In this document: one piece after another, positions 1,365-59,371 of the stretch
Layout: every line of letters begins with the position of its first letter
How positions within the stretch are numbered: position 1 is the first letter of the stretch
Assembly: GCA_947572415.1 (NCBI GenBank)
Contig: CANPBT010000001.1
Location: forward strand, 1 to 64,000
Source: an uncultured Clostridia bacterium
GTDB taxonomy: Bacteria; Bacillota; Clostridia; Christensenellales; Borkfalkiaceae
Length of the DNA stretch: 64,000 nucleotides
Reading direction: 5' to 3'
Notes under the pieces: model-generated
The model's database searches: none
Told to the model about the DNA's origin: nothing
Seen by the model: the letters and a program-made list of their open reading frames with translations, nothing else
Made by a program: the position numbers and the translations under genes

Positions 1365-1393
1365 TTGAAATTTAAAAAAAGCCGTGTTATAAT
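1365..1393 (+). promoter_or_regulatory. glpK promoter, predicted leaderless
   Basis: TTGAAA (1365-1370), 17 bases, TATAAT (1388-1393) with TGT before the -10. Only six bases separate the -10 from the ATG at 1400, placing the predicted +1 on the start codon. Confidence 0.75.
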
Positions 1394-1399
1394 GGGGGT

Positions 1400-2878
1400 A
1401 TGGGTAAATATATACTTTCAATCGATCAGGGTACTACGAGTTCGCGCGCAATCGTATTCGATAAAGCCGCGCGCATAGTCTGTATGGCCCAGCAGGAATT
1501 CAAGCAGATTTATCCCGCGGCGGGACGGGTAGAGCATTCGCCGCAGGATATTATGGGGTCAACGATGGCTGTCATTGCCGAAGCGTTGGTTCGCGCGGAT
1601 ATATCCGCGGAGGATATTGCGGCGGCGGGCATAACAAATCAGCGCGAAACCACGCTCGTATGGGATAAGGCTACGGGCAAGCCCATATACAACGCGATAG
1701 TATGGCAGTGCCGCAGGACGGCGGACTATTGCGAAAAGCTTAAAGAAAAGTATTCGGATTTAATTTACGAAAAGACGGGGCTTATCCCCGACGCGTACTT
1801 TTCCGCAACCAAAATCAAATGGATTTTGGATAACGTGGACGGCGCGCGCGAACGCGCGGAAAGGGGCGAGCTGCTGTTCGGCACCGTCGACACTTTTTTG
1901 ATGTGGCAGCTCTCGAAAGGCGACATATTCGCCACCGACTACACAAACGCCGCGCGCACAATGCTGTTCAACATACATACCCTGGAGTGGGACGACGAGC
2001 TTTTAAAGCTCTTCGGTATCCCGCGCGATATGCTGCCCGAGGTTTTGCCGAGCGGCGGCAAATTCGGTTATACGCATAAAAGCGTGTTCGGCTCGCCCGT
2101 GCCGATTTGCGGCGCCGTGGGAGACCAGCAGGCGGCGCTGTTCGGGCAGCTCTGCACCGAAGAGGGCGATTTGAAAAACACTTACGGCACGGGCTGCTTC
2201 CTCCTGATGAACACGGGCAAAAAGGCTGTTAAAAGCCGAAACGGGCTCGTAACCACTCTGGGCGCGACCCTGACTAAAAAGCCGCCGTACGTGCTGGAAG
2301 GCTCGGTATTCGTCGGCGGTGCGGCGGTGCAGTGGTTGCGCGACGGGCTCGGAATACTTAACTGCGCCGACGAAAGCGAAAGCTACGCGGTAAAGGTTGA
2401 AGATAACGGCGGGGTGTACGTTGTGCCCGCGTTTACGGGGCTTGGCGCGCCATACTGGGACGCGGACGCACGCGGGCTCATTACGGGCATAACCCGCGGC
2501 ACGACTCGCGCGCATATAGTGCGCGCCGCGCTCGAGGGGATAGCCTATCAGGTGGAAGATATTGTGCGCGCCATGCAGCGCGATTCGGGCATAAAAATAA
2601 CCCGCCTCAACGTTGACGGCGGGGCGAGTAAAAATAATTTTTTGTTACAGTTTCAGTCGGATATATCCGATTGCGAAGTCGTTCGCCCGCAAACGGTCGA
2701 AACGACGGCGCTTGGCGCGGCGTACCTTGCCGGACTTGCGTGCGGCTTCTGGAAAGACGAGCGCGAAATCAGGGCGACGGCGAGCGGTTACAAGGTTTTC
2801 AGCCCGAATATGCCGGAGGCAACGCGCGTGAAGCTTTTAAGCGGCTGGGAAAAAGCGGTTGCAAAAGCGAGGGATTAG
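1400..2878 (+). CDS. glpK: Glycerol kinase
   Basis: 492 aa, the normal length for GlpK, which phosphorylates glycerol with ATP to glycerol 3-phosphate in the cytoplasm. FGGY kinase signatures are visible: N-terminal [16 protein letters not shown] (phosphate-binding loop), [13 protein letters not shown], the TYGTGCF phosphate-2 region and the [19 protein letters not shown] adenosine motif. No transporter or glpD lies next to it, so its in-cell role (glycerol use or lipid precursor supply) is open. It has no Shine-Dalgarno sequence and its promoter suggests a leaderless mRNA. It overlaps the convergent RHH gene by 4 bp. Confidence 0.95.
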
Positions 2879-3066
2879 TTTTCGGTTTGCTCCGTACTAA
2901 GCCCTCTCGCGCCTTTCTTGCGGTATTTCACGCACTGCGTCAGAAGATACTCTATCTGACCGTTCACCGAGCGGAATTCGTCCTCCGCCCAGCGTTCGAG
3001 CTCGGCGTACAGCTCGTCTGAAATCCTTAACGGGATTTGTTTTTTGCCGTTCTTTTTATTATCCAT
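2875..3066 (-). CDS. Arc/RHH-type small DNA-binding protein
   Basis: 63 aa. The segment [22 protein letters not shown] is the strand-helix signature of ribbon-helix-helix (Arc-like) proteins, and [15 protein letters not shown] forms the second helix. Such proteins bind DNA as dimers through the N-terminal strand. It follows the membrane protein at 3066-3632 with a TAATG stop/start overlap, so the two are probably co-transcribed. No toxin-like partner is present; the target is unknown. Confidence 0.7.
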
Positions 3067-3632
3067 TAATCAACCTGTTCTGCGGAAGAACCGTAGTATT
3101 TCAGCATTTCGTCAAGCAGCACGTACAGCTGCTTTCTTTTTATCTGTGAGCATAAAGTATAAATTTTTATATCGCCGAACGACCAGAAGAGCTGCCACTT
3201 TTTATAAAACGACAGCGTGCTCCTGTAAGCTTTGAAATTTTTTAAATAAATTTTAAGCGAAGGCATATCGTCGTCCAAAAGGTCAAGCCAGGTAGCGTCT
3301 TTTGTGAAGCTTTGTATGTCTTCCCAGGCGATAAACCCGAAATGAAAATAACCGGAGTAGTTGTAAACCCCCTTTTCGTCCGCGGTCAAAAGGAAGGGGA
3401 AGAACAGGTTGCGGAAATTCAGCGCGCCAAGGCAAAAGCTTATAAAAATTATAACTGAACTGCCGATAATCAGCGGTATTAATATATCCTTTTCGGGTGG
3501 GTATTTTATTAAACCTAACGGCAGCAGCGCGGCTAACGCGACGGCAAACGCCAAAAACGCGAACGCGGCTGCCGCGGTAAGCGCGCGGTTGCGCCTTATA
3601 TACAAATTTTGCGGTTTAGTTAATTTTTCCAT
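3066..3632 (-). CDS. Membrane protein with PH-like (STM3941-type) C-terminus
   Basis: 188 aa from ATG 3632 (GTG 3638 is also possible). Two transmembrane helices near residues 20-45 and 52-78 are followed by a soluble domain with '[25 protein letters not shown]', a pattern seen in bacterial PH-like domains of STM3941/YcxB-type membrane proteins. The function is unknown. No Shine-Dalgarno sequence is visible. It is followed directly by the RHH gene. Confidence 0.6.
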
Positions 3633-3754
3633 ATACACTATTCAAAGGTTACGAAAAGGGGTTAACGTTTCGGGATTTTCAAGCGTCAGGTCAAATATAT
3701 GCCCGCACCGGAAGCCTATATTTTAGCCTGTAACGCGAGAATTTTGCGAGCCTA

Positions 3755-4663
3755 TTAATATATGCTTCCGCTGTTTACGATAGGCTGGGCGTCGCGGTTG
3801 CCGCAGAGCACGACGAGGAGGTTGGATACCATTGCCGCCTTTCTTTCGTCGTCAAGTTCCACTATGTTGTTGTCGGAAAGCTTTTTGAGCGCCATATCCA
3901 CCATGGAAACAGCTCCGTCGACAATCTTCTGCCTTGCGGCTATTATCGCAGCCGCCTGCTGGCGTTGAAGCATTGCCGCCGCAATTTCGGGCGCGTACGC
4001 AAGGTTGTTTATGCGCGCGTCGAGTATTTCTATGCCGGCGTTGTTTACTCTGGACTGCAATTCCGCTTTCAGCACTTCGGCTATTTCCTGCGAAGAACCG
4101 CGCAGCGACTTTTCGTCGCCGTTTTCGGAAACGTCGTAAGGGTACTGTCTTGCAACCTGTCTTATGGAAGAATCGCACTGTGTGGATATAAAAGTTACGT
4201 AATTATCCACCGCGAAAACCGCCTTTGCCGTATCGCGTATGCGCCATATAACTACCACGCTTATCTCAATGGGGTTGCCCTCTTCGTCGTTTACTTTCTG
4301 TTTTTCGTTATTCAACGTCATTGCTTTAAGGCTCAACTTTCTGCCGCCTTTGCCGAATGCCGCCGCAGGATTGACCGACGTGCAGAAAGGGTTTACAAAA
4401 TAAAAGCCGTCTTTTTTAAGCGAGCCGTGGTATTTGCCGAACAGCGTGAATACGAGCGCTTCGTTGGGGGCAAGCACTTTAAAGCCGGGTATGCAGATTA
4501 TTGCAATCAGCATTAATATTGCGCCGGGAATAAAGCCTGCGCCTTCGGTAATCACCGCACCGGCAATCGCGCCGGCCACGCCGCCTAAAAAACCTACAAT
4601 TACAACGGCAAGCATAAGCCAGCCGTTTAAGCCTTTCATTTCCTTTTCTTTAACTTCGTTCAT
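3755..4663 (-). CDS. SPFH / Band 7 domain membrane protein
   Basis: 302 aa. Two N-terminal hydrophobic segments (residues ~12-60) are followed by an SPFH domain: [18 protein letters not shown], then '[24 protein letters not shown]' and '[36 protein letters not shown]', the helical end typical of stomatin/prohibitin-like proteins. These form oligomeric membrane scaffolds. The start has a good GGAGG. A 17-base-spaced promoter and a double TGATATCA site lie upstream (4684-4736). The regulator is unknown. Confidence 0.85.
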
Positions 4664-4683
4664 AAATGCCTCCGAAAGTTTTA

Positions 4684-4736
4684 TGATATCACTTTGATAT
4701 CAGTTTAATTATAGTACGAATTTTTACGGTTGTCAA
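4684..4736 (-). promoter_or_regulatory. SPFH gene promoter with double TGATATCA site
   Basis: TTGACA (4736-4731), 17 bases, TATAAT (4713-4708). Two copies of the 8-bp palindrome TGATATCA (4684-4691 and 4695-4702), 11 bp centre to centre, cover the predicted +1 region. This looks like an operator for a repressor that blocks initiation. Confidence 0.65.
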
Positions 4737-4744
4737 CGTTTTTG

Positions 4745-4773
4745 TTGAAAATTTTTTTTAAATTCGGTATAAT
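4745..4773 (+). promoter_or_regulatory. Promoter of the EEP gene, predicted leaderless
   Basis: TTGAAA (4745-4750), 17 bases, TATAAT (4768-4773), then six bases to the ATG at 4780. No Shine-Dalgarno sequence. Confidence 0.75.
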
Positions 4774-4779
4774 CGTATT

Positions 4780-5916
4780 ATGAAAGCAAAAAAGATTGTA
4801 AAAATTATAGCGATAACCCTCGCATGCGTTATAGGTGCGGTTGCGCTTATTATCGGCGGATACGTGGGATACGTGGCTGTTCAATATTACAGAATAGAAG
4901 ACAATTTTGAATTGCAAACGGAAAACGGCAGGGATAAAAAGGCGGGGTTAAACGACGTGTTTACCGTTATGACGTACAATACGGGGTTCGGCGCTTATTC
5001 GCCCGACTATTCGTTTTTTATGGATACGGGCGTAATGGACGACGGAACGGAAGTTGTAGGCAAATACGCTAAGGGGCGCGACAAAGCCGACGTAAAAAAG
5101 AACGTTGACGGGCAGACGGATATTATAAAAAACGCGGACGCGGATTTTTACTTTTTGCAGGAAGTGGACGAAAAGGCGGACAGAAGCTACGGCATAAATA
5201 TGAAGAGCGTCTTTTCCGCCGCGTTCGAAAACCGCAGCGCGACCTATGCGGAAAACTTCCATACGGCAAACCTTTTTTATCCTTTCAACGACCCTATAGG
5301 CAGAACCGACGCGGGCATACTAACGCTTTCCTCATACAATATACAGAGCGCGGTGAGGCGGTCGTTTCCGCTTACCGATAATTTTATAGACAAGCTGTTC
5401 GACCTTGACAGATGCTTCGCGGTGCATTATCTTCCGCTCGAAGGGAGCGATAAGTTTCTGGTTTTAATCAACCTCCATATGTCCGCATACGACAAGGGCG
5501 GCGCCGTGCGCGCGCAGCAGCTCGAAATGCTTAACGGCGTTTTAAAGGAGGAGCGGGCAAAAGGCAACTACGTCGTTGCGGGCGGCGACTTCAACCACTG
5601 CCTTATCGCCGATTACTTTGAAAGCGACGAGCAGGCTTTATCGCATTTCGAAAGCAGACAGCAAGTACCTGAATGGGTCAAAAATTCCGTTTTACATAAT
5701 TCCGAGCTGGCGGAGGGTTTCCGTATTGCGTCGGATAAGGACGTCGCCACGTGCCGCGGCGCGGATATCCCTTACGAAAAGGGCGTCAATTATACCAATA
5801 CGATAGACGGGTTTATCGTTTCCGATAACGTTGAGGTCGTTGCGGTGAACACGCTGAACACAGAATACGCGTTCAGCGACCACAACCCCGTGGTTTTAAA
5901 ATTTGCGTTATTATGA
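4780..5916 (+). CDS. Endonuclease/exonuclease/phosphatase-family protein, membrane-anchored
   Basis: 378 aa. Residues ~5-35 form an N-terminal membrane anchor or uncleaved signal. The EEP fold follows, with 'VFTVMTYNTGFG', 'FYFLQEVDEKADRS' (catalytic Glu), 'VAGGDFNHC' and the C-terminal 'AFSDHNPVV' (Asp-His). All metal-binding and catalytic motifs of the DNase I-like superfamily are kept. The substrate (nucleic acid, phospholipid or inositol phosphate) cannot be told from sequence; the anchor suggests action outside the membrane. The HNH gene follows with an ATGA overlap. Confidence 0.85.
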   Translation: MKAKKIVKIIAITLACVIGAVALIIGGYVGYVAVQYYRIEDNFELQTENGRDKKAGLNDVFTVMTYNTGFGAYSPDYSFFMDTGVMDDGTEVVGKYAKGRDKADVKKNVDGQTDIIKNADADFYFLQEVDEKADRSYGINMKSVFSAAFENRSATYAENFHTANLFYPFNDPIGRTDAGILTLSSYNIQSAVRRSFPLTDNFIDKLFDLDRCFAVHYLPLEGSDKFLVLINLHMSAYDKGGAVRAQQLEMLNGVLKEERAKGNYVVAGGDFNHCLIADYFESDEQALSHFESRQQVPEWVKNSVLHNSELAEGFRIASDKDVATCRGADIPYEKGVNYTNTIDGFIVSDNVEVVAVNTLNTEYAFSDHNPVVLKFALL

Positions 5917-6347: not shown

Positions 6348-6382
6348 AAAAGGCTTTCCTCCAGTCGGAGGAAGCTTTTTTT
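6347..6382 (+). terminator. Intrinsic terminator after the HNH gene
   Basis: Hairpin with CTTTCCTCC / GGAGGAAG core, loop AGTC, followed by seven T. Confidence 0.8.
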
Positions 6383-6470
6383 GCTTTATAATTTTGTAGA
6401 ATTATACATAATTTTATCAGCATGCGTCGGTTTTCGGCGCAATATGTTATTAATTATCAGCCCTTTTGCG

Positions 6471-6519
6471 ATACTATATATAGTATAACAGAAAAAAAAT
6501 AACATACAAGATATTGTGT
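6471..6519 (+). promoter_or_regulatory. Two NrdR-like boxes upstream of nrdD
   Basis: Box 1 at 6471-6486 is ATACTATATATAGTAT, a perfect 16-bp palindrome. Box 2 at 6504-6519 is ATACAAGATATTGTGT. Both resemble the NrdR consensus (ACACwATATATwGTGT), and the starts are 33 bp apart, close to the three-turn spacing usual for NrdR. They lie just upstream of the nrdD promoter, so nrdDG-dut is probably in the NrdR regulon. Confidence 0.7.
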
Positions 6520-11479: not shown

Positions 11480-11528
11480 AAACATGCTTAATTAATAAAT
11501 CGCCGCTCGGCGTAATATATTATACCGT

Positions 11529-13085
11529 ATGGCACAGGAAAGGTTCAAATCGAGGGGCGGGTTTATACTCGCAAGCGTAGGCGCGGCGGTGGGGCTGGGG
11601 GATTCGCTCCGCTTCCCCGGGCTTTGCGCTAAATACGGCGGCGGCACGTTTTTAATGATTTATATAATAGCGCTGCTTTTAATAGGTATACCCGTTATCA
11701 ACGCGGAAATCGCGATAGGCAGGAAATTCCGCGCGGGCGCGCCCGTTTGTATGGCGAAATTAAACAAAAAAGCCGAGCCGCTGGGCTGGGCTTCGTGCTT
11801 CAATTCGCTGGGCGTGGCGGTAATATACGCGGGTATACTCGGCTGGATAATCGCAATGATAATCAAAATCGTCCCGCTTTGCAAGGCCTCGACTTCAATG
11901 ACCCATGCCGAAACAAGCGGCTATTTTTTTAAAAACGTGCTGGGCTCGAACATGTCTCCGCTCGTGCTTGCGTGCATACTTGCCGCGTGGGCGCTCATGT
12001 ATATGTGTCTGCGCGGCGGGGCGCAGGGGCTTGCAAAGACGGCAAAGTTCACAGTTTTAATCCCCGTCGCGCTGCTCACGTTTATGGCGGTAAGGGGGCT
12101 ACTGTACGCCGACAGCGGCAAAGCGCTTTACGCGCTGTTCGTACCCGATTTCTCGGCGCTTGGCGACGCAGAGCTCTGGATTAACGCCGTGGGGCAGGTT
12201 TTCTTTTCGCTTTCGGTGCTCGTCGGCATAATGCCCGCGTACGGCGCGTATCTGCCCGAGGGCACGAACGTGTTTACCGACAGCATAATCGTCGCAACGG
12301 CGGATTTTCTCGTTTCGATACTCTCTTCGGTGGTGTTGTTCACAACCCTTTACGGCTGCGGATTGCAGGGGGAAATTTCCGAGTCGGGCATAGGCACCGC
12401 GTTTATGGTTTACCCCGCCGCGATAACCCTCGTTTTCGGCGCGGGTAACACCGTTTTCAACGGTATTGCGGGGGTATTGTTCTATTTTTCGCTCGCGATG
12501 ATGGCGTTGCAGTCGTCGGTATCAATGATAGAGGCGGCGGCGAACCCGCTTTCGGTAAAATTCGGGCTGAACAAAAAGAAGCTTGCGGGCGTAATCTGCG
12601 CCGTCGGCGCGGCGATATGCGTCGTTTTTGCAACCTCTGCGGCGCCCGTCGCGCTCGATATTTCAGACCATTATCTCAATTATTTCAATATTCTGCTTCT
12701 CGGCATAGTCGAGTGCGCGCTTTTAGGCAGGCACGCTAAGGATATAAATCTTGCGGGCGAAATAAACCGCTACGCCAAGCGCGCGAAAATGCCCGAAAAA
12801 CCTCTCGTTTTCTCGCTGCAATATTTAAGCCCCGTCGCGCTTTCGTGTTTGCTTGCGTGGGGGATATACCACCTTATCGCCGCCGAGGGCGGGTTGTACG
12901 GCGGGTACCCCGTGTGGGCGCAGCTTGCATTCGGCTGGCTTATAAGCCTTGCGGTTTTCGCTTCGGGCTTCATAATCTGCGGAGCGGGGCGGCGCCTCGG
13001 GCGTTCGCCGCGCGTTAAAAAGCTTTCTGCGGGGCGGGCGGGTTGCACTTCGCGCCGGCGCGGCTTTCGCGTATCTGGTCGATAA
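11529..13085 (+). CDS. Sodium-dependent (NSS/SNF family) transporter
   Basis: 518 aa with about 11-12 transmembrane helices. The N-terminus 'SRGGFILASVGAAVGLGDSLRFPGLCAKYGGGTFL' is the TM1 sodium/substrate signature of neurotransmitter:sodium symporters; bacterial members carry amino acids. No Shine-Dalgarno sequence; a weak -10 (TATTAT, 11518-11523) is 5 bases from the ATG. The last ~30 residues are Arg-rich, lack family character, and lie inside the convergent glycosyltransferase gene, a 71-bp overlap. The true end may have been shifted by a late frameshift. Confidence 0.88.
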   Translation: MAQERFKSRGGFILASVGAAVGLGDSLRFPGLCAKYGGGTFLMIYIIALLLIGIPVINAEIAIGRKFRAGAPVCMAKLNKKAEPLGWASCFNSLGVAVIYAGILGWIIAMIIKIVPLCKASTSMTHAETSGYFFKNVLGSNMSPLVLACILAAWALMYMCLRGGAQGLAKTAKFTVLIPVALLTFMAVRGLLYADSGKALYALFVPDFSALGDAELWINAVGQVFFSLSVLVGIMPAYGAYLPEGTNVFTDSIIVATADFLVSILSSVVLFTTLYGCGLQGEISESGIGTAFMVYPAAITLVFGAGNTVFNGIAGVLFYFSLAMMALQSSVSMIEAAANPLSVKFGLNKKKLAGVICAVGAAICVVFATSAAPVALDISDHYLNYFNILLLGIVECALLGRHAKDINLAGEINRYAKRAKMPEKPLVFSLQYLSPVALSCLLAWGIYHLIAAEGGLYGGYPVWAQLAFGWLISLAVFASGFIICGAGRRLGRSPRVKKLSAGRAGCTSRRRGFRVSGR

Positions 13086-14300: not shown

Positions 14301-14343
14301 TATGGTGTTTTATATTTGCTTTTTTACCGATTATGCGATAAAA

Positions 14344-14349
14344 TATACT
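14344..14349 (+). promoter_or_regulatory. -10 box of the two-component operon, predicted leaderless
   Basis: TATACT, five bases before ATG 14355, with no Shine-Dalgarno sequence. The -35 is poor, so an activator may be needed. Confidence 0.5.
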
Positions 14350-14354
14350 TGATT

Positions 14355-15026
14355 ATGACAAACATTATGATAGTCGAGGACGACGAAAATTTAAGATTGC
14401 TTCTTTCAACCAGGCTGAAAACGCGTTACGCCGTAACCGCCGTTTCCGGCGCGACGGAGGCGTTGGAGCTTTTGGAGGACGGCAAAACCGAACTTGTGAT
14501 TACGGATATTATGATGCCCGTAATGGACGGTTACACGTTTGTAAAAACTATGCGCTCGCAGGGGTGGGATATACCCGTGATTATGCTTACGGCGAAGGAT
14601 ACCTTAAACGACAAGGGTCAGGGCTTTTCCGTCGGCTGCGACGATTACCTGACCAAACCCGTAAATTTCGAGGAGCTTGTCTGGCGTATCGACGCGCTGT
14701 TGCGGCGCAGCAAAATCGCAAACGAGGGCAAAATAGTAATAGGCGGGGTAACTGTCGACAGCTCCGAGTTTACGGTTACGCGCGGCGATACGGTGATAGA
14801 ACTGCCCACCAAGGAGTTCAGGCTTTTATACCTGCTTTTATCCTACCCGAACAAGATTTTCACAAAGGAAAATATCCTCGATAAAGTCTGGGGCTACACC
14901 TCGGAAAGCGACGAAACGACGGTAAGGACGCATATGAACAGATTGAGGAGCAAGTTTGAAAACTTCCCCGAGTTCGAGCTCGTCACAATCCGCGGCGTAG
15001 GTTATAAGGCGGTGATTAAAAAATGA
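14355..15026 (+). CDS. OmpR/PhoB-family response regulator
   Basis: 223 aa. Receiver domain with acidic pocket 'IVEDDENLR', phospho-acceptor Asp in 'LVITDIMMPVMDG', 'MLTAKD' and the conserved Lys in 'YLTKPVNFEEL'. The C-terminal winged helix ends 'RTHMNRLRSKFE...TIRGVGYK'. Start 14355 was chosen because translation upstream of it lacks receiver-domain character. The kinase gene overlaps its stop by 4 bp. The stimulus is unknown. Confidence 0.93.
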   Translation: MTNIMIVEDDENLRLLLSTRLKTRYAVTAVSGATEALELLEDGKTELVITDIMMPVMDGYTFVKTMRSQGWDIPVIMLTAKDTLNDKGQGFSVGCDDYLTKPVNFEELVWRIDALLRRSKIANEGKIVIGGVTVDSSEFTVTRGDTVIELPTKEFRLLYLLLSYPNKIFTKENILDKVWGYTSESDETTVRTHMNRLRSKFENFPEFELVTIRGVGYKAVIKK

Positions 15027-16646: not shown

Positions 16647-16675
16647 TTGTTTTATTTTTTTATATATGTTATACT
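16647..16675 (+). promoter_or_regulatory. ruvX promoter, predicted leaderless
   Basis: TTGTTT, 17 bases, TATACT with TGT extension; six bases to ATG 16682 and no Shine-Dalgarno sequence. Confidence 0.7.
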
Positions 16676-16681
16676 CATTAT

Positions 16682-17104
16682 ATGGAAAGATACGTTGCTT
16701 TCGATATCGGCGATAAAAGGATAGGCGTCGCCATTTCCGACCCTTTCAATACATATGCTCTGCCTTCGCAGACTTATTTTCGGAAAGGGTTTAAAGAGGA
16801 CGTCGCCGCGATTGCGGCGATAGCAAAGCAAAAGGGCGCAACCGTCATTATTTGCGGGCTACCCGTAAATTTCGACGGCAGCGAGGCGGTGCAGACAGAA
16901 AAAACGCAGAGGTTTATCGACGCGCTTAAACGCGAGGCGGACGTCCCCGTCGTCTGCGAGGACGAAAGGTTTACCACGAAGATGGCGCACGATACGCTTA
17001 TAAGCGAGGGTATGCGCCGCGAAAAGCGGAAAAACTACGTCGACGCGCTTGCCGCCGCAAATATCCTCGACGGCTATCTTAACAGAAAAAATAAAGGAGT
17101 TTAG
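16682..17104 (+). CDS. ruvX: YqgF/RuvX, Holliday-junction resolvase-like protein
   Basis: 140 aa RNase H-like fold protein. 'YVAFDIGDKRIGVAISDP' holds the first catalytic Asp, 'VIICGLPVNFDGSE' the second region and 'CEDERFTTKMA' the Glu/Asp region; the end has 'KNYVDALAAANILDGYL'. The family acts on branched DNA or in 16S rRNA 5'-end processing. The DUF1292 gene follows after 5 bp, the usual Bacillota arrangement (yrrK-yrzB). Confidence 0.93.
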   Translation: MERYVAFDIGDKRIGVAISDPFNTYALPSQTYFRKGFKEDVAAIAAIAKQKGATVIICGLPVNFDGSEAVQTEKTQRFIDALKREADVPVVCEDERFTTKMAHDTLISEGMRREKRKNYVDALAAANILDGYLNRKNKGV

Positions 17105-22488: not shown

Positions 22489-22517
22489 GTCATTAAATAA
22501 AAAATTTCGGGTATAAT
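22487..22517 (+). promoter_or_regulatory. dxr promoter, predicted leaderless
   Basis: TTGTCA (19-base spacer, longer than ideal) and TATAAT (22512-22517), five bases before ATG 22523; no Shine-Dalgarno sequence. Confidence 0.6.
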
Positions 22518-22522
22518 AGTAA

Positions 22523-23620
22523 ATGAAAAAAGTTTCACTTATAGGCTGTACGGGCAGCATAGGCAGACAGGTTATCGACGTAATCGGGCGATATCCCGAT
22601 AAATTCAAAATAACCGCGCTTGTCGCGGGGCGTGACAGCGAAGCTTTCGACAGGCTTGCCGAACAATTGAAGCCCGAATACCGCGCAACCGCTTCTTCGG
22701 GTGTAATCCCCGAAGAAGCGGTTGCGGGCTGCGATATCGTCTTCAACGCCGCGGGCGGTTTTGCGGGGCTCGGTTACAGCCTCGCGGCGATTAAAGCGGG
22801 CAAAACGCTTGCGCTCGCCAACAAGGAAACACTCGTGTGCGGCGGCGACGTGGTTATGCCGCTTGCGGAAAAGGCGGGCGTGGATATTCTGCCCGTTGAC
22901 AGCGAGCATTCGGCAATCTGGCAGTGCCTGAATTTTAACGGAAACGCGAAGTTCAGAAGGCTCATAATAACGGCGAGCGGCGGCGCGTTCCGCGATTTTA
23001 CGCCCGAACAGCTCGAGGGTGTGACGCCCGAACAGGCGCTCGCTCACCCGACGTGGAAAATGGGCAAAAAAATAACGGTTGACAGCGCAACGCTTATGAA
23101 TAAGGGATATGAAGTAATCGAAGCGCATATACTTTACAAAGCGCCGTATCGCGATATTGAAACGGTAATACAGCCGCAGAGCGTCGTTCACTCGCTTGTG
23201 GAGTTTACAGACGGGGCTGTAATGGCGCAGATGAGTTACCCCACTATGGAGCTGCCCATTCAGCTTGCGTTAAGCTATCCCGAAAGGCTTTCGCTTTCCG
23301 TCGCGCCTATGGATTTCGGTACTGTTTTTTCGCTCGATTTCAAGCCGCTCCCCGATGGGAAATATCCGTGTTTTGCGCTTGCGCTCGAATGCGGCAAGGC
23401 CGGCGGGATAATGCCGTGCGTGCTCAACGCCGCCGACGAGGTCGCGGTGAGCGCGTTTTTGCAAGGCGAAATATCTTTTACGGATATCTATCGCGTAGTG
23501 GACGGGGTTGTGCAAAAAACCGTAAACGATAAAGCGGAAAGCTTCGGTCGGCTTAAACAAGCCGATGAAGCGGCGCGTGCCGCCGCGCGGGAAATTATAG
23601 GGCGCGTTGCTTCCGCATAA
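22523..23620 (+). CDS. dxr: 1-deoxy-D-xylulose 5-phosphate reductoisomerase
   Basis: 365 aa. It commits carbon to the MEP isoprenoid pathway, using NADPH. 'SLIGCTGSIGRQVIDVI' is the nucleotide-binding loop; 'ANKETLVCGGD', 'DSEHSAIWQCL' and 'MNKGYEVIEAHILY' are catalytic regions. It follows cdsA but has its own terminator/promoter boundary. Confidence 0.97.
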   Translation: MKKVSLIGCTGSIGRQVIDVIGRYPDKFKITALVAGRDSEAFDRLAEQLKPEYRATASSGVIPEEAVAGCDIVFNAAGGFAGLGYSLAAIKAGKTLALANKETLVCGGDVVMPLAEKAGVDILPVDSEHSAIWQCLNFNGNAKFRRLIITASGGAFRDFTPEQLEGVTPEQALAHPTWKMGKKITVDSATLMNKGYEVIEAHILYKAPYRDIETVIQPQSVVHSLVEFTDGAVMAQMSYPTMELPIQLALSYPERLSLSVAPMDFGTVFSLDFKPLPDGKYPCFALALECGKAGGIMPCVLNAADEVAVSAFLQGEISFTDIYRVVDGVVQKTVNDKAESFGRLKQADEAARAAAREIIGRVASA

Positions 23621-25993: not shown

Positions 25994-26022
25994 TTGAAAT
26001 TTACAAAAATTTGTATTATAAT
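25994..26022 (+). promoter_or_regulatory. yfbR-like gene promoter, predicted near-leaderless
   Basis: TTGAAA (25994-25999), 17 bases, TATAAT (26017-26022); nine bases to ATG 26032, leaving a leader of ~3 nt. No Shine-Dalgarno sequence. Confidence 0.72.
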
Positions 26023-26031
26023 ACTGTCACT

Positions 26032-26616
26032 ATGAGTTACGATTTTTTTGCTTTCACGGACAGAATGAAGTACATCAAGCGCTGGCAGCTTATGCGCAGC
26101 GTGCGCGACGAGAATATTATGGAGCATTCCCAGCAGGTCGCAATGTTTGCGCATGCGCTGGCGGTTATCAACAACCGTATTTTCGGCGGCACGGCGAACG
26201 CGGAAAAGGCGGCTTTGTACGCAATTTATCACGAGTGCAGCGAGGTTATGACGGGCGATTTGCCCACGCCCATAAAATATTTCAACAGCAGTATAAACGG
26301 CGCGTATAAAAGCCTCGAAGAGCGCGCGTGCGACAAGCTGTTGAACACCCTCCCCCGCGAGCTTGGCGAAAGCTTCGAAGCGTACCTGAAGCCCGATACC
26401 GCTTGTTATGAATATACGCTTATGAAGGTTGCCGACAGATTTTCGGCATACGTAAAGTGCCTTGAAGAGCTGCGCTGCGGCAACAACGAGTTTTCAAAAG
26501 CCAAAAAGAGCATAGAAGAGGATATCCGCTCCCGCAATATCCCCGAAGCCGAATATTTTTTCGAAAACTTTATCCCCGCGTTCAGCCTGTCGCTGGACGA
26601 GCTGGAGGGGCTGTAA
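26032..26616 (+). CDS. YfbR-like 5'-deoxynucleotidase (HD superfamily)
   Basis: 194 aa. 'RMKYIKRWQLMRSVRDENIMEHSQQVAMFAH' and 'SEVMTGDLPTPIKYFN' are the YfbR signatures; such enzymes dephosphorylate dNMPs. The metal dyad that is normally His-Asp reads His-Glu here ('IYHECSEV'). Start 26032 (MSYDFF) is fixed by the promoter position. The end is followed by a shared terminator. Confidence 0.85.
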   Translation: MSYDFFAFTDRMKYIKRWQLMRSVRDENIMEHSQQVAMFAHALAVINNRIFGGTANAEKAALYAIYHECSEVMTGDLPTPIKYFNSSINGAYKSLEERACDKLLNTLPRELGESFEAYLKPDTACYEYTLMKVADRFSAYVKCLEELRCGNNEFSKAKKSIEEDIRSRNIPEAEYFFENFIPAFSLSLDELEGL

Positions 26617-29472: not shown

Positions 29473-29501
29473 TTGACAAAAGCAAAACAAACGGTTAAAA
29501 T
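29473..29501 (+). promoter_or_regulatory. ylxM-ffh promoter, predicted near-leaderless
   Basis: TTGACA, 17 bases, TAAAAT; eleven bases to ATG 29513, giving a ~5-nt leader with no Shine-Dalgarno sequence. Confidence 0.7.
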
Positions 29502-29512
29502 CTATTAGTGTT

Positions 29513-29896
29513 ATGGATAAATTCTCTTTTATTTCCTTGTGGGACGCGTATAACGGGCTTCTGACCAGGACGCAGCAGGAAATTACGGATTTATATTTCA
29601 ATAAGGATTTAACCGTAACCGAAATCGCGGAGCAAAAGGGTATAAGCCGTCAGGCGGTTTCGGAGTGTCTTACCGGTTGCAAAAAACAGCTCGAAGAGTA
29701 TGAAGAAAAGTTGCGTTTTTTAAAGCGTATAAGGGTAATCTGTCTGGAAAAATCGTTTTTGCGGACGGACGCGGGCATGTGGGCGGAAGGCTTTAAGTCG
29801 GCTCACCCCGAGTTTACCGAAGATATAGAAAGGCTTGACGGAATACTTAAATACGACTATTCCGAAAAAGCGGAAGAGCGGTTGAAAAATCCGTAA
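29513..29896 (+). CDS. ylxM: YlxM-family DNA-binding/SRP-associated protein
   Basis: 127 aa. Sigma-70 region 4-like HTH: 'LLTRTQQEITDLYFNKDLTVTEIAEQKGISRQAVSECL'. YlxM in streptococci modulates SRP GTPase activity. It lies 11 bp before ffh, the standard pairing. Confidence 0.92.
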   Translation: MDKFSFISLWDAYNGLLTRTQQEITDLYFNKDLTVTEIAEQKGISRQAVSECLTGCKKQLEEYEEKLRFLKRIRVICLEKSFLRTDAGMWAEGFKSAHPEFTEDIERLDGILKYDYSEKAEERLKNP

Positions 29897-52178: not shown

Positions 52179-52651
52179 TTTTTACCCCTTTTCAGAAGAT
52201 AAACAAACAGCGCCGCAAGCGCGATTATAAACGCGCCTAAAAATACCGACAGCACTATCATAGGCGTGTTCTGCGGCACCGAAATTATCCATACCGTGGC
52301 GGTGGTGTCGTACGCGGCGTCCTTAACGCAGTAAATTATTGTTATAATAAGCCCCGTTATAGCCGCGACGGTTGCGCAGGCAATCGCGATAAACGGCAAA
52401 AGCTTTTTTGCTTTCTGCAACCTCAGCTCGTTCGCGTTTGCTTCGCCTGGTTTTATGCCGCCTTCCAGAAATTCGTTCGCGTCGAGCCCGAACACGTTGC
52501 ATATGTTCAGTATCTGCGCGGAGGAGGGCGTGCTTCTGCCCGCCTCCCAACGGGTCACCGTCTGTCGGGCTACGTTTAACTTATCGGCAAACTCCTGTTG
52601 GGATAGCCCGCTGTCGCTTCTTATTTTAATCAGCTTTTCACGTATTGTCAT
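52175..52651 (-). CDS. XRE-family regulator with two C-terminal transmembrane helices
   Basis: 158 aa. N-terminal HTH 'IRSDSGLSQQEFADKLNVARQTVTRWEAGRSTPSSAQILNICNVFGLDANEFL' (residues ~9-60), then hydrophobic segments at ~85-107 and ~128-152. A membrane-bound XRE regulator, likely sensing envelope state or the co-encoded lipoprotein. Predicted leaderless: TTGACA (52687-52682), 18 bases, TAAAAT (52663-52658), six bases to the ATG. Confidence 0.85.
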   Translation of the reverse strand: MTIREKLIKIRSDSGLSQQEFADKLNVARQTVTRWEAGRSTPSSAQILNICNVFGLDANEFLEGGIKPGEANANELRLQKAKKLLPFIAIACATVAAITGLIITIIYCVKDAAYDTTATVWIISVPQNTPMIVLSVFLGAFIIALAALFVYLLKRGKK

Positions 52652-52657
52652 AAAAAT

Positions 52658-52701
52658 ATTTTAACATACTGATTGACAAATTGTCAATTTCCCATTATAT
52701 T
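52658..52701. promoter_or_regulatory. Divergent leaderless promoters over an ATTGACA-AAT-TGTCAAT palindrome
   Basis: Palindrome 52672-52688. Its arms are the -35 boxes of both genes: + TTGACA (52673-52678), 17 bases, TATATT (52696-52701); - TTGACA (52687-52682), 18 bases, TAAAAT (52663-52658). Confidence 0.65.
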
Positions 52702-52710
52702 TATGTCGTT

Positions 52711-53403
52711 ATGGAAATATTTTCGAGGACGGAACTTTTAATAGGGGAAGCGGGGCTTAAAAAGCTTTCGGCTTCGCGCGTGGCGGTGTTCGGCGCGGGC
52801 GGCGTAGGCGGCTATGCGATAGAGGCGCTGGCGCGTTCGGGCATAGGCGCGCTGGATATTATCGATAACGACGTCGTTTCGGTATCGAACATCAACAGAC
52901 AGATTCTCGCGCTTAAAAGCACCGTCGGCAAATACAAAGCCGACGTCGCAGTATCGCGTATTGCCGACGTTAATCCCGATTGCAGGGCGACCGCGCACAA
53001 GCTCTTTTATCTGCCCGAAACGCCCTTTGATTTTTCTTGCTTCGACTATATTGTGGACGCAATCGATACGGTGACGGGCAAAATCGCGATTATCGAAAAC
53101 GCTGTAAAGGCGGGCGTACCCGTTATAAGTTGTATGGGCGCGGGCAACAAGCTCGACCCGACTGCGTTCGAAGTTGCGGATATAAAGAAAACCTCCGTAT
53201 GCCCGCTTGCAAAGGTGATGCGCAGGGAATTAAGTAGGCGCGGCATAGACGGCGTAAAGGTAGTATTTTCGCGCGAAACGCCCGTTGCCCCCGCAATATG
53301 CCGTGGCGAAAACGGCAAAAGCGTGCCCGCAAGCATCGCTTTCGTGCCCTCAGTAGCGGGGCTTATTATCGCGGGCGAGGTAATAAAGGATTTGATTAAA
53401 TAG
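52711..53403 (+). CDS. ThiF/E1-like ATP-dependent enzyme (TcdA-like)
   Basis: 230 aa. 'FGAGGVGGYAIEALARSGIGALDIIDNDVVSVSNINRQILAL' is the adenylating Rossmann core (Gly-rich loop, Asp, Arg) and 'DYIVDAIDTVTGK' follows. Length and sequence fit TcdA, which makes cyclic t6A37 in tRNA from the product of the TsaB/TsaE pathway; tsaE and tsaB lie 0.4-0.8 kb downstream. The start has no Shine-Dalgarno sequence and is predicted leaderless. Confidence 0.85.
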   Translation: MEIFSRTELLIGEAGLKKLSASRVAVFGAGGVGGYAIEALARSGIGALDIIDNDVVSVSNINRQILALKSTVGKYKADVAVSRIADVNPDCRATAHKLFYLPETPFDFSCFDYIVDAIDTVTGKIAIIENAVKAGVPVISCMGAGNKLDPTAFEVADIKKTSVCPLAKVMRRELSRRGIDGVKVVFSRETPVAPAICRGENGKSVPASIAFVPSVAGLIIAGEVIKDLIK

Positions 53404-53758: not shown

Positions 53759-53787
53759 TTGCAAAAAATTGCCGTGCGGGGTATAAT
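53759..53787 (+). promoter_or_regulatory. tsaE operon promoter, predicted leaderless
   Basis: TTGCAA, 17 bases, TATAAT; six bases to ATG 53794. No Shine-Dalgarno sequence. Confidence 0.72.
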
Positions 53788-53793
53788 AACCGT

Positions 53794-54198
53794 ATGGCAG
53801 TTTTCTTATCCCGAAGCCCCGAGGATACTTTTAAGTTCGCGGGGGAATATGCGAATACCCTTAACCCCGGCGACGTCGTTGTTTTAAACGGCGATATGGG
53901 CGCGGGCAAAACCGTCTTTGCGAAAGGGGTGGCAAACGCGCTAGGTATAGACGACGAAATTTTGAGCCCGACCTACACTTATATGAACGACTACGGCGGC
54001 AGGCTGTACCACTTCGACTGTTACCGCCTCAAAAACGGCGCGCAGGCGGAGGGGCTGGGGCTCACCGATTATTTTTATTCGGACGGGATATGTCTTATAG
54101 AGTGGGCTTGCAATATTCGGGATGTTTTGCCCGAAAGGGTAAAAACGGTTACGATAGAAAAGACGGGTGAGGGGGAAAGGAAAATCATATATGAATAA
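53794..54198 (+). CDS. tsaE: tRNA t6A biosynthesis ATPase TsaE
   Basis: 134 aa. Walker A 'LNGDMGAGKTVFAKGVA', then 'ILSPTYTYMNDYGG', 'LYHFDCYRL' and 'GICLIEWAC' (Walker B-like). It supports the TsaB-TsaD complex that makes threonylcarbamoyl-adenosine at tRNA A37. It overlaps tsaB by 8 bp. Confidence 0.96.
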   Translation: MAVFLSRSPEDTFKFAGEYANTLNPGDVVVLNGDMGAGKTVFAKGVANALGIDDEILSPTYTYMNDYGGRLYHFDCYRLKNGAQAEGLGLTDYFYSDGICLIEWACNIRDVLPERVKTVTIEKTGEGERKIIYE

Positions 54199-54793: not shown

Positions 54794-55224
54794 ATTTACG
54801 CTGCTGGAAGTATGAGGACATTCTGCGCATATCCGAACTTGAAAAGGAGTGTTTCGGCGACGAGGCGTGGAGCTACCGTATGCTCGCTTCGAGCTTCGGC
54901 ACGGAAAGCTTTATCGGCATACTTGCCGACGACGACGGGGATATCGCCGGTTACGGCGGAGTAACGGTCGCGGCGGACAGCGCTGATATAGGCAACGTCG
55001 CCGTTGCGGAGGCTTACCGCAGGGGCGGAGTGGGCGCGGCGCTGCTCAACGCGCTGTGCGATGAGGCTAAGCGCAGGGGCGCGGCGAGGGTATTCCTCGA
55101 AGTGCGCGTTTCCAACTCGGCGGCGATGCTGCTGTACCTTAAAAACGGCTTTAAAGGCGTTTACGCGCGCACCCGCTATTATCCCGACGGCGAGGACTGC
55201 CTCGTTATGACCAGAGAGTTATGA
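54790..55224 (+). CDS. rimI: Ribosomal-protein-alanine N-acetyltransferase RimI
   Basis: 144 aa GNAT. 'EAYRRGGVGAALLNALCDEAKRRGAARVFLEVRVSNSAAMLLYLKNGFKGVYARTRYYP' contains the acetyl-CoA loop (RxxGxG/A) and the C-terminal NGF motif. It is part of the common tsaE-tsaB-rimI cluster. Its stop TGA is in the same reading frame as the downstream hydrolase. Confidence 0.93.
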   Translation: MNLRCWKYEDILRISELEKECFGDEAWSYRMLASSFGTESFIGILADDDGDIAGYGGVTVAADSADIGNVAVAEAYRRGGVGAALLNALCDEAKRRGAARVFLEVRVSNSAAMLLYLKNGFKGVYARTRYYPDGEDCLVMTREL

Positions 55225-55956
55225 GGTAAACCTATTTTTATCGGCGGCGAATACGTATCTACCGTCCGCGCGGGCGACGGAAAGGACGTACTTTTGCTTC
55301 ACGGCTATATGTCGAGCAAGCAAAGCTTTTATTATCAGATTGAATATTTATCGAAAAGCTTCAAGGTGACCGCGCCCGACTTTCCGGGTTTCGGCGCAAG
55401 CGCGCCGCTCACGGCAGCGTGGTCGGTTTCGGATTATTGCGGCTGGCTTGAAAGCTTCGTAAAGGCGGCAAAGCTCGATAAGCCGCATATAATAGCCCAT
55501 TCTTTCGGGGCGCGCGTTGCCTTCAAATATCTTTGCGGCAGGCCGCAACTTGCGGAAAAGCTCGTGGTTACGGGCGGCGCGGGGCTGGTGAAGCCGCGTT
55601 CAGTCGAATATCTGCGCCGCGTGAAGGCGTACAGACGGGTAAAAAGGCTCTTCCCGAAATTTGCGGAAAAGCATTACGGCAGCGCGGAGTACCGCGCGCT
55701 TCCGCCGCTTATGCGCGAGAGCTATAAAAGCATTGTAAACGAAGATTTGAGGGAATACGCGGCGGGCGTGCAAAACAAAACGCTGCTCGTCTACGGGAAA
55801 AACGACACGGTGACCCCGTCGGGCGAGGAGGGTGAAATTTTTCATTCGCTTATCAGCGGCAGCCGCCTTGTTATTGCCGACGGCGGGCACTTCTGCTTTT
55901 CGGAAAAGCCCGAAGCTTTCAATAAAACTGTATACGAATTTTTTACGGAAAAATAA
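55221..55956 (+). CDS. Alpha/beta hydrolase with a frameshifted start region
   Basis: About 240 aa. 'VLLLHGYMSSKQSFYYQIEYLS', nucleophile elbow 'IIAHSFGARVAFKYL', acid 'LLVYGKNDTVTP' and His 'VIADGGHFCFSEKPEAFN' make a complete hydrolase. The reading frame has no ATG or GTG between the rimI stop (55224) and 55294 (TTG), yet family-like sequence (PIFIGGEYVSTVRAGDGKD) starts right after the stop. ATG 55221, overlapping rimI, would read MRKPIFIGG if T55227 were absent. Annotated with an apparent one-base insertion. Substrate unknown. Confidence 0.75.
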
Positions 55957-55957
55957 A

Positions 55958-57556
55958 ATGGGTATCTTTATTTCGGTTTCAAAGACAATTGAATGCGTCG
56001 TTATCGCGCTTTTCTTTGCGGTTATGCTGTGCGCCGCCGCTTACAGGCAGGCGGGGGTTTTGCAGTCGTGCGGATACAGCGGCGGCAAATACTTCGGCTG
56101 GCTGAAAAAGAAGGGCAACCTCGCTTACGAAAGGTTTGCGCTGCTCGCGCTTCTGTGCGCGCTCTCTTCGGCGGTCATAGCGCTCTGCTTTTCGTTTGCG
56201 GGCGAGTGGGCGGCGGTGATTTCCCTTGCGCCCTTCGCGCTGTTTTTCGTAATCTTTCTGGTTGCGGACAAAAAAATCGCGCTCCGCTCGGAGGTTACTT
56301 TAACCCCGCGCTTCAAAAGGCTTTACGCCGTGTATTTCGTTGTCGCCGCGTTGCTTTCGTATATTTTCGTAACCCTTTTAAATTTCGCGGATTACGTATG
56401 GGGCAACTCCGTATTCACGCGGCTGAGGTACTGCGCGCTCGCGCTGCTGCCGCTTTTGAATCTTTTCATACTTCTTTTTTCCAACTGTATCGCTAAAATT
56501 TACGAGGTGCCGCACAACAATAAATTCATAAAAAAGTCGAAAGCAAAGCTTGCCGCGTCGGATATAAAGGTTATAGCCATAACGGGCAGCTACGGCAAGA
56601 CGAGCACGAAGTTCATTCTAAACTCCATTTTATCGAAAAAATACCGCGTGCTCACTACGCCGCGTTCGCACAATACGCCGATAGGCGTCGCGCTCGCGGT
56701 GAATAACGCAAACCTCGGCGACTACGATATATTCATAGCCGAAATGGGCGCGCGGCACGTCGGCGACATTGCAGAGCTGTGCGAAATATGCCCGCCCGAT
56801 ATCTCGATTATAACGGGTATATGCGGCCAGCATATGGAAAGCTTTTTAACCTTTGAAAATATCGTCAAGGCAAAGGGCGAAATACTAGCCGCCACAAAGG
56901 GAACGGCGGTAATCGCGGCGGACTGCTTCGATTTGTTCGAGGAATACCCCTGCGACAAGAGAAAGTGCGGCTGCGTTTCGGATATAGCCTGTACGGCGGA
57001 GGGCACCGATTTTACCCTTACGCTGGGCGGCGAAAGCGTCGCGGCGCACACAAAGCTTTTGGGCGAACACTCGGCGTACAATATCGGGGTCGCAGCGGAG
57101 GCGGCGTACCTTGCGGGTATGACCGCGGACGAAATAGCCGACGCAATAAGCGGCATTGACTTTATCGAACACCGCTTACAGCTTATAAGCTCGGGCGGGG
57201 TGAATATTCTCGACGACGGCTATAATTCAAACGTGAAAGGCGCGCGCGCCGCGCTCGGCGTTTTGCAGCTTTTCGGCGGCGCGAAGATAGTCGTGACTCC
57301 GGGGCTCGTCGAGCTGGGCGTGCTTGAGGAAAAGGAAAATTACGAGCTGGGCAAAGCGCTTGTGGGGCTTGATTTTGTAATACTCGTCGGCGACACTTTG
57401 GTTACGCCCGTAAAAAAAGGCTATCTCGAAAACGGCGGGGATGAGGGTAAGCTCAGGGTAAAGCCCACGCTTGCCGCCGCGCAGGAGGAGATTAAAACGA
57501 TTATATCCGCGGGCGATACGGTTTTGTTTCTGAACGACCTGCCCGACGTCTATTGA
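55958..57556 (+). CDS. murF: MurF-like Mur ligase with an N-terminal membrane domain
   Basis: 532 aa, longer than soluble MurF (~450). Four to five N-terminal hydrophobic helices (residues ~5-27, 50-70, 75-98, 118-140, 155-175) precede the Mur ligase: 'IAITGSYGKTSTKFILNSIL' (P-loop), 'SHNTPIGVALAVNNANLGDYDIFIAEMGARHVGDI' (MurF-type), 'INILDDGYNSN'-like 'VNILDDGYNSNVKGARAAL'. It adds D-Ala-D-Ala to the UDP-MurNAc-peptide; ddl follows after 60 bp, matching the pathway. Confidence 0.9.
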   Translation: MGIFISVSKTIECVVIALFFAVMLCAAAYRQAGVLQSCGYSGGKYFGWLKKKGNLAYERFALLALLCALSSAVIALCFSFAGEWAAVISLAPFALFFVIFLVADKKIALRSEVTLTPRFKRLYAVYFVVAALLSYIFVTLLNFADYVWGNSVFTRLRYCALALLPLLNLFILLFSNCIAKIYEVPHNNKFIKKSKAKLAASDIKVIAITGSYGKTSTKFILNSILSKKYRVLTTPRSHNTPIGVALAVNNANLGDYDIFIAEMGARHVGDIAELCEICPPDISIITGICGQHMESFLTFENIVKAKGEILAATKGTAVIAADCFDLFEEYPCDKRKCGCVSDIACTAEGTDFTLTLGGESVAAHTKLLGEHSAYNIGVAAEAAYLAGMTADEIADAISGIDFIEHRLQLISSGGVNILDDGYNSNVKGARAALGVLQLFGGAKIVVTPGLVELGVLEEKENYELGKALVGLDFVILVGDTLVTPVKKGYLENGGDEGKLRVKPTLAAAQEEIKTIISAGDTVLFLNDLPDVY

Positions 57557-57571
57557 TACAATTAATAAATT

Positions 57572-57612
57572 AAATTCACCAAAGCTAAAAAAATAAATGC
57601 GGAGGTGAATTT
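57572..57612 (+). promoter_or_regulatory. Hairpin masking the ddl ribosome binding site
   Basis: AAATTCACC (57572-57580) is a perfect 9-base complement of GGTGAATTT (57604-57612), which contains the end of the GGAGGTGA site of ddl (57601-57608). Translation of ddl could be controlled by opening of this stem. Confidence 0.55.
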
Positions 57613-57616
57613 TTTT

Positions 57617-58714
57617 ATGCAGAGAAATATTGCGGTGATATTCGGAGGAATATCCAACGAAAACGAAATTTCGGTAATTACGGGCACGATGGCGGCAAAT
57701 GTGTTAAAAAACGCGGGCAACACGGTTATACCCCTGTATATATCGCGGCAAGGCGATATTTATACCGGAGACGGGCTTGCCGATATCGACAATTTCAAGG
57801 GTGACAAGTATACCGCTTTCCCGCGGGCGATTGTTGCAAAGGGCGGCATATATGCGCTGAATAAGCGGCTTCGCCCAAAAAAATTCGTCAGGGTCGACGT
57901 TGCGGTCAACTGCTGCCACGGCGGTTGGGGCGAGGGCGGCGGCGTGTGCGGGCTTTTCGCGCTCAACGCGATTCCGCTTGCAAGCGCGGGTATGTTCGAG
58001 TCGGCTGCGTTTATGGATAAATATTTCACCAAACTCGTGCTCGCTTCGCTGGGCGTAAAAACGGCTTCGTACGTATATATGCGCGAAGCAACCGGTTTGG
58101 ACGAGGCGGAAAAGCTCGGCTATCCTATGATAGTTAAGCCCGCGAAGCTCGGTTCGAGCATAGGCATAGAGTGCGTCGAAAACCGCGAAGAGCTTGAAAA
58201 TGCGCTCTCCTCGGCGTTTATTTACGACGACGGGGTTATAATCGAACAGTTCCTGAAAGACCGCAGGGAAATCAATTGCGCCGCATACTATGCTTCGGGC
58301 AAGGTAGTAACTTCGGAGTGCGAGGAGGCGTTTGCGCACGGGGATATTTTAAGCTACGACGACAAGTATGCGGGCGGCGGCAAGAGCGTTTTGCCCGCGG
58401 ATATACCCTTGCGAACGTCCGACGAAATAAAAGCCATAACCGAAAAAGTATATTCGAAATTGAATATGCGCGGCATAGTCCGCTTCGATTACATACTCAG
58501 CGGCGGCGAAATTTATTTAAGCGAAATAAACACCGTGCCCGGGTCGCTGTCGTATTATCTGCTGTCGAACGGGTTCAAAGATTTTTATACCGTGTTGCAG
58601 GCTGTAATCGTACAGGCGGAGGAGGACTTCAAAGCTGCCTCCGAAAAGAAAATACTCACGACCGGCATTTTGAACGATATCCGTTCGGGCGCGTACAAGA
58701 CGGGCGGCAAATAA
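57617..58714 (+). CDS. ddl: D-alanine--D-alanine ligase (ATP-grasp)
   Basis: 365 aa. 'VIFGGISNENEISVITG', 'PMIVKPAKLGSSIGIECVENREEL', 'GVIIEQFLKDRREINCAAYY', 'GIVRFDYILSGGEIYLSEINTVPGSLSYYLLSNG' are the ATP-grasp motifs. The end motif reads EINTVPGSLSYYL, not the common E(V/I)NT-PG-(F/M)T; the product specificity (D-Ala, D-Ser or D-Lac) should be treated as likely but unproven. ATG 57617 follows a strong GGAGGTGA; a GTG at 57605 lies inside that site. Confidence 0.9.
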   Translation: MQRNIAVIFGGISNENEISVITGTMAANVLKNAGNTVIPLYISRQGDIYTGDGLADIDNFKGDKYTAFPRAIVAKGGIYALNKRLRPKKFVRVDVAVNCCHGGWGEGGGVCGLFALNAIPLASAGMFESAAFMDKYFTKLVLASLGVKTASYVYMREATGLDEAEKLGYPMIVKPAKLGSSIGIECVENREELENALSSAFIYDDGVIIEQFLKDRREINCAAYYASGKVVTSECEEAFAHGDILSYDDKYAGGGKSVLPADIPLRTSDEIKAITEKVYSKLNMRGIVRFDYILSGGEIYLSEINTVPGSLSYYLLSNGFKDFYTVLQAVIVQAEEDFKAASEKKILTTGILNDIRSGAYKTGGK

Positions 58715-58748
58715 AAGGAGCGCGGACTTTAAAGTCCGCGCTCCTTTT
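58713..58748. terminator. Bidirectional terminator between ddl and the ECF gene
   Basis: Perfect 36-bp palindrome, arms AAAAGGAGCGCGGACTTT / AAAGTCCGCGCTCCTTTT, followed by T on both strands. Confidence 0.92.
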
Positions 58749-59319
58749 TGAATTCGGGCAGAAGATTGCTTTTCGCCAGCTGTTTTTTAAGCGTGGTCGC
58801 GTAGCACACCGTAAGCGCGGCGGCTATCCCGATAACTTCCTGCAACACGTTTCTTACCACGCGCACGGAAGCGTAAGCATACCCGTAATTTTTATCGGGA
58901 TATATAAGCGGCGCTATGAGGCAGTAGAACGCGAAGTACCCGCCTATTACGGCTATTGCGCCCGCAACCGAAGATATGCCCGCCCAGACGGGCTCGCGCT
59001 TTTTTGCAAGCCCCTTAAAAGCACAGTGCAAAAGCGCGGATACCGCCGCGCCCTGTACGCCGTGTATTATCAGCGATACGGGCGCCATAGCGGCGTTGCC
59101 GAAGCACATATCGTATAAAAGCGTACCCAGCCCGCCGACTATGAACGAGGCGAAGGGGTCCATAAGATAGGCGGTAAGGAAGATAATTCCGTCGCACCAG
59201 TACACGTTGCCCCACGGCGTAGGCGCGGGCGGTATAGCCGCCGTGGCGACGGTCAACGCAGTAAGCATTGCCGTATAGGTTATCCATTTAGTTGCAAAAA
59301 TCGTATTTCCGTTTTTCAT
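58729..59319 (-). CDS. ECF-transporter S component, possibly for a B6 vitamer
   Basis: 196 aa, five to six transmembrane helices. 'ATKWITYTAMLTALTVATAAIPPAPTPWGNVYWCDGIIFLTAYLMDPFASFIVGGLGTLLYDM' is the S-component N-terminal pattern. Start MKNGNT at 59319 is used; TATAAT stands nine bases upstream, so it is predicted leaderless with no Shine-Dalgarno sequence. The divergent MocR regulator suggests pyridoxal or pyridoxamine uptake (PdxU-like), an inference from context. Confidence 0.8.
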   Translation of the reverse strand: MKNGNTIFATKWITYTAMLTALTVATAAIPPAPTPWGNVYWCDGIIFLTAYLMDPFASFIVGGLGTLLYDMCFGNAAMAPVSLIIHGVQGAAVSALLHCAFKGLAKKREPVWAGISSVAGAIAVIGGYFAFYCLIAPLIYPDKNYGYAYASVRVVRNVLQEVIGIAAALTVCYATTLKKQLAKSNLLPEFKKERGL

Positions 59320-59328
59320 ACGTTGACA

Positions 59329-59371
59329 ATTATACTCTGCTTTTGATATTATTAAAATAATCAATTTGATA
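59329..59371. promoter_or_regulatory. Divergent ECF-S / MocR control region
   Basis: TATAAT for the ECF gene (59334-59329, - strand) without a good -35, as is common for activated promoters. Between it and the MocR -10 (TATAAT 59378-59383, +) lies an imperfect dyad built from TTGATA...ATCAA (59344-59364) that could be the MocR site. Confidence 0.5.

Follow-up and report, generated by a model that had tools for sequence, protein, structure and literature searches.

Since eleven genes in the window (the whole stretch of 64,000 nt of DNA analysed here) carry a -10 box only a few nucleotides before the start codon, the question arises whether their mRNAs begin at or near the AUG itself, and whether this is a habit of the lineage or a property of a few genes. 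An earlier note had listed these eleven starts, and all of the start codons and -10 boxes were found where it had placed them (Table 1), without a Shine-Dalgarno (SD) match at any of the eleven, again as claimed. Its distances between -10 box and start codon (the gap) hold for ten of them; for the response regulator a better -10 box lies at gap 10, with a second one at gap 5. The -35 element that it had set at 17 nt for most sites is a TTG-type hexamer with a spacer of 17 in eight of the eleven, the exceptions being the XRE gene (spacer 18), dxr (GTCATT at 17 or TTGTCA at 19) and the ECF-S gene (only a weak TTTTAA). The base at -1 is T in ten of the window sites and A in dxr. At the sites with gaps of 9-11 (YfbR, ThiF, ECF-S, ylxM and perhaps the response regulator), leaders of 2-5 nt are more likely than none, and such mRNAs would probably be near-leaderless in practice.

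Table 1. Start-proximal promoters in the window. Gap, nucleotides between -10 box and start codon. The last row is a weaker extra candidate outside the original eleven.
Gene	Positions	Strand	-35	-10	Start codon	Gap	Remarks
glpK-like FGGY kinase	1365..1402	+	TTGAAA 1365-1370	TATAAT 1388-1393	ATG 1400	6	Pfam
endonuclease/exonuclease/phosphatase (EEP) gene	4745..4782	+	TTGAAA 4745-4750	TATAAT 4768-4773	ATG 4780	6	
response regulator	14316..14357	+	TTGCTT 14316-14321	TAAAAT 14339-14344 or TATACT 14344-14349	ATG 14355	10 or 5	
ruvX	16647..16684	+	TTGTTT 16647-16652	TATACT 16670-16675	ATG 16682	6	
dxr	22489..22525	+		22512-22517	ATG 22523	5	conserved block GTCATTAA...CGGGTATAAT; terminator-like hairpin directly upstream
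YfbR-like 5'-deoxynucleotidase	25994..26034	+	TTGAAA 25994-25999	TATAAT 26017-26022	ATG 26032	9	predicted leader 2-3 nt
ylxM	29473..29515	+	TTGACA 29473-29478	TAAAAT 29496-29501	ATG 29513	11	predicted leader 4-5 nt
XRE (HTH_3) gene	52649..52687	-	TTGACA 52687-52682	TAAAAT 52663-52658	ATG 52651-52649	6	spacer 18
ThiF-family gene	52673..52713	+	TTGACA 52673-52678	TATATT 52696-52701	ATG 52711	9	
tsaE	53759..53796	+	TTGCAA 53759-53764	TATAAT 53782-53787	ATG 53794	6	
ECF transporter S component	59317..59357	-	weak TTTTAA 59357-59352	TATAAT 59334-59329	ATG 59319-59317	9	
SNF-family transporter	11514..11531	+		-10-like TATATT/TATTAT	ATG 11529	7/5	score 7.9, near threshold

The divergent XRE and ThiF genes are 59 bp apart, and an inverted repeat, TTGACAAATTGTCAA (52673-52687), holds the -35 boxes of both. 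This repeat is a plausible predicted operator for the XRE protein, and both transcripts are predicted to have no leader or a very short one.

The frequency of such promoters was assessed in 464 kb of the genome, namely the window and twenty further stretches of 20 kb, or about 30% of the 1.57 Mb draft assembly (64 contigs). Genes were called with a home-made finder that relies on a hexamer coding score and leaves the upstream signal unused, which gave 354 genes with upstream sequence, of which 211 appear to open a transcription unit (first genes). A home-made consensus-weight score for -35 and -10 elements, with spacers of 16-18, found a promoter for 127 of these 211, and among the 127 the gap is bimodal, with a sharp peak at 6 (13 genes), 23 genes at 5-9 (the leaderless class), only 4 at 10-14, and then the ordinary leaders (100 genes at 15 or more). 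In 100 dinucleotide shuffles the expectation at gap 6 is 0.75 (maximum 6; Poisson p ~2e-12), and at gaps 5-9 it is 4.0 over the 211 upstream regions. A lack of enrichment over shuffled upstream regions was what the earlier note had named as speaking against it; the test was run and returned a strong excess, in support of the reading given there. The eleven-site observation is confirmed as real, and chance is excluded genome-wide for the class. The picture is stable over promoter thresholds from 6 to 10; the strictest leaves 57 promoter genes, 13 of them leaderless.

How common the class appears depends on the denominator: 18% of promoter genes (23/127), 11% of first genes (23/211) or 6.5% of all genes (23/354). 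The term "widespread" used in the earlier note has to be read against these rates. The window also somewhat overstates the frequency because it is richer than the remaining genome (10/30 versus 13/97 promoter genes). With 23 leaderless-class and 100 leadered genes, the two modes do stand side by side in one genome, as had been proposed. Plain pattern counts (TATAATN{5,7}ATG and TTGAN{18,20}TATAATN{5,7}ATG) against reversed-pattern and gap-25-27 controls were indecisive and were dropped; since many promoter-near ATGs are not gene starts, gene-anchored counts alone were used.

Bacterial RNA polymerase usually prefers a pyrimidine at -1 and a purine at +1. In the leaderless class the start codon is ATG in all 23 genes and the base at -1 is T in 22, compared with 67 of the 100 leadered genes (p 0.003), which fits the expectation for a transcription start site at the ATG. 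An SD is present in 0/23 versus 69/100 genes, a difference that is not independent and partly forced because the -10 box sits where the SD would be. When the six leaderless-rich genomes are pooled, a grouping made after the counts were seen, a pyrimidine stands at -1 in 60 of 63 leaderless genes versus 257 of 379 (p 6e-7), and the gap histogram holds 50 genes at 6 and no more than 18 at each of the remaining gaps up to 44.

We consider it likely, with a probability of about 0.87, that besides SD-led mRNA the lineage makes regular use of a second, leaderless mode of expression. A sigma-A promoter of ordinary type (TTGNNN, 17 nt, TATAAT) would be placed with 6 nt between its -10 box and the start codon; RNA polymerase would then start on the A of the ATG, aided by the pyrimidine at -1, and the mRNA would begin with 5'-AUG. 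Ribosomes would probably take this terminal AUG together with initiator tRNA and without SD pairing, a route that is established in other bacteria, where IF2 and initiator tRNA act at the terminal AUG (PMC10783764). While motif, spacing, enrichment, conservation and distribution were computed here, the precise 5' termini of the mRNAs and their handling by ribosomes are what we infer.

The position of the promoter was compared among relatives. In 30 genomes of the family, the -10 box of ruvX lies at exactly gap 6 in 17 and at gap 8 in one; nine have a leader with an SD and three have neither. Among the 17 gap-6 genes the start lies up to 18 nt off the aligned position and is GTG in two, and the gap is unchanged, with a mean identity of 0.85 in the -10 box compared with 0.42 (spacer), 0.39 (discriminator) and 0.29 (further up). 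At dxr, GGGTATAAT is found 4-5 nt before the ATG in all 27 clade genomes (the window and 26 relatives). These relatives were collected by protein, not promoter. Those with names belong to uncultured Clostridia; one is labelled Christensenella sp., another Candidatus Coproplasma, and the lineage is probably to be placed in an order near Christensenellales. Conservation upstream of dxr amounts to 1.21 bits per column in the last 40 versus 0.21 further up. At ruvX and dxr, the promoter-to-start spacing is hence kept while the DNA diverges.

The dxr gene also provides a counter-argument. Fourteen of the 27 genomes have a gap of 4 and thirteen a gap of 5, that is 1-2 nt below the genome's usual 6 and shorter than what sigma-A start-site selection usually prefers, which counts against a leaderless reading of this gene. 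Among more distant dxr genes, L045 has an SD leader and L056 (position 5001; a goat-caecum Clostridia assembly, dxr identity just 46%) has a different, unrelated promoter with TATAAT at gap 6. In many relatives the dxr block (CATTAA...CGGGTATAAT) abuts the terminator-like hairpin of the upstream gene, the T-run of which merges with the -35 region. The block was also considered as the mark of a regulon and rejected: the 464 kb hold no second copy, and in 245 genomes of the class the dxr-like CGGGTATAAT form occurs only in the own genome and a congener, other matches looking like chance.

Further genes of the class recur less regularly. In four genomes lepA has gaps of 6, 9, 7 and 6, while tsaE, queH and an apbE-like gene are each leaderless in a second genome; the tsaE orthologue of G470, from a different family within the order, has a gap of 6 as well. 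For glpK and pcrA, leaders occur in one or two relatives (the glpK of G447 is leadered, that of L028 has TATAAT at gap 9), and YfbR is a counter-example with orthologues that are mostly leadered. Over the sampled orthologue groups the class recurs in 6 versus 3.4 expected (p 0.06), which is only suggestive of conservation. By Pfam, the class includes RuvX, DXR, TsaE, LepA, GidB/RsmG, QueH and DAP epimerase, as well as a UvrD-like helicase, ApbE, asparagine synthase, a CLC channel and an ECF-type sigma factor.

With one pipeline for all genomes, and with samples from relatives smaller than the 464 kb of the own genome, leaderless genes make up 23/127 promoter genes in the latter, 9/62 in the same genus, 12/95 and 3/44 in the same family, 17/82, 11/64, 4/34, 3/61 and 0/52 in the same order and 3/62 and 1/80 in the same class. 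Leaderless-rich relatives thus reach 12-21%, compared with 0-7% in the other sampled Clostridia, and within the order the distribution is patchy. Which genomes are leaderless-rich is not explained by G+C content; those with 0/52 (G365, G+C 0.50) and 1/80 (G323, 0.33) flank the own value of 0.49. A 16S rRNA gene is absent from the own assembly and from nine of the ten relatives searched; the sole one found (G365) ends in a normal CACCTCCTTTCT.

Could the start-proximal promoters be real but minor, with the productive mRNAs coming from upstream promoters or read-through and carrying leaders that lack an SD? Read-through is conceivable because 10 of the 23 genes follow a same-strand gene, and four of the 23 have a second promoter-like site at a gap of at least 15. 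However, such second sites are rarer than in leadered genes (41/100), dxr sits behind a terminator-like hairpin in many relatives, and this explanation gives no reason for the conservation of an exact 6-nt gap at ruvX, so that we regard it as improbable. Considerably less probable still is that the start codons are misassigned, translation beginning further downstream, in frame, at a codon that has an SD and follows a normal leader. One gene of the class, the UvrD/PcrA-like helicase (L020 14366), does have such a downstream start with an SD-like site, but the leaderless class (1/23) shows no excess of these over leadered genes (5/100), and in DXR, RuvX, LepA and DapF the conserved N-terminal motifs start within a few residues of the methionines in question. 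Least credible of all are chance -10-like hexamers in AT-rich upstream DNA: a few of the 23 sites could be of this kind since the shuffles yield about four at gaps 5-9, but neither the count at gap 6 nor the near-absence of the class from G365 and G323 under the same pipeline agrees with it.

Leaderless transcripts as a regular second mode would be unusual for the class. Clostridia are usually viewed as almost purely SD organisms, and here about one sixth of the promoter-bearing genes are predicted to be leaderless, so that gene finders expecting an SD may misplace starts. The rarity assumed in the earlier note agrees with published data: mapped 5' ends gave about 2-3% leaderless genes in solventogenic clostridia (PMC9045289) and 15 genes were reported in C. 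difficile (PMC7438776), and a survey of 1025 genomes found leaderless genes in 56 of 209 Firmicutes genomes (mean 4.2%), concentrated in Lactobacillales and Mycoplasma (PMC3160421). Mapping in enterococci gave <1% (PMC7724050). Leaderless transcripts hence exist in mapped clostridia and enterococci, at measured levels (3% or less in clostridia) well below the predicted 12-21% of promoter genes in the leaderless-rich members here. With the leaderless genes of Actinobacteria and Deinococcus-Thermus the present ones share the -10 box at a fixed short distance, the lack of an SD, the ATG and the SD-led genes alongside (PMC3160421); they differ in phylum, in having a complete sigma-A promoter (-35 and -10) whose TATAAT is well kept, and in a G+C content of 49%. 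The survey means there are 19.2% and 39.4% (PMC3160421), versus about 11% of first genes here by the method of this analysis. Lactobacillales and Mycoplasma share the TATAAT-type signal and, in the older sense, the phylum, but belong to a different class, and the survey names no Clostridia (PMC3160421). No paper joining "leaderless" with "Christensenellales" was found in the searched literature. The kind of mRNA is thus already known, and its frequency and per-gene conservation in this Clostridia lineage appear to be new.

One could speculate further that the leaderless mode is old in part of the order, was selected at ruvX, lepA, tsaE, queH and dxr, was repeatedly lost through the gain of SD leaders, and may couple translation to the state of the ribosome. 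The last point might follow from the function of several carriers (lepA, tsaE, queH, rsmG, ruvX), which act on tRNA, rRNA or the ribosome; taken as a whole, we consider this scenario rather unlikely. A natural experiment on how and why the initiation mode switches is offered by ruvX, which in the genus of the window (L136-L141 included) is leaderless in five genomes, while in two (L137, L138) it has a leader with an SD.

Two minor observations may be added. A small sigma-70-family factor with regions 2 and 4 (L019 12219-12764, minus strand) itself belongs to the leaderless genes (TTGACA promoter, gap 9), and the divergent dapF is leaderless with gap 6. Lastly, an FMN riboswitch (RF00050, 102.8 bits; L002 7429-7560, minus strand) was the sole Rfam match in the 124 kb searched.
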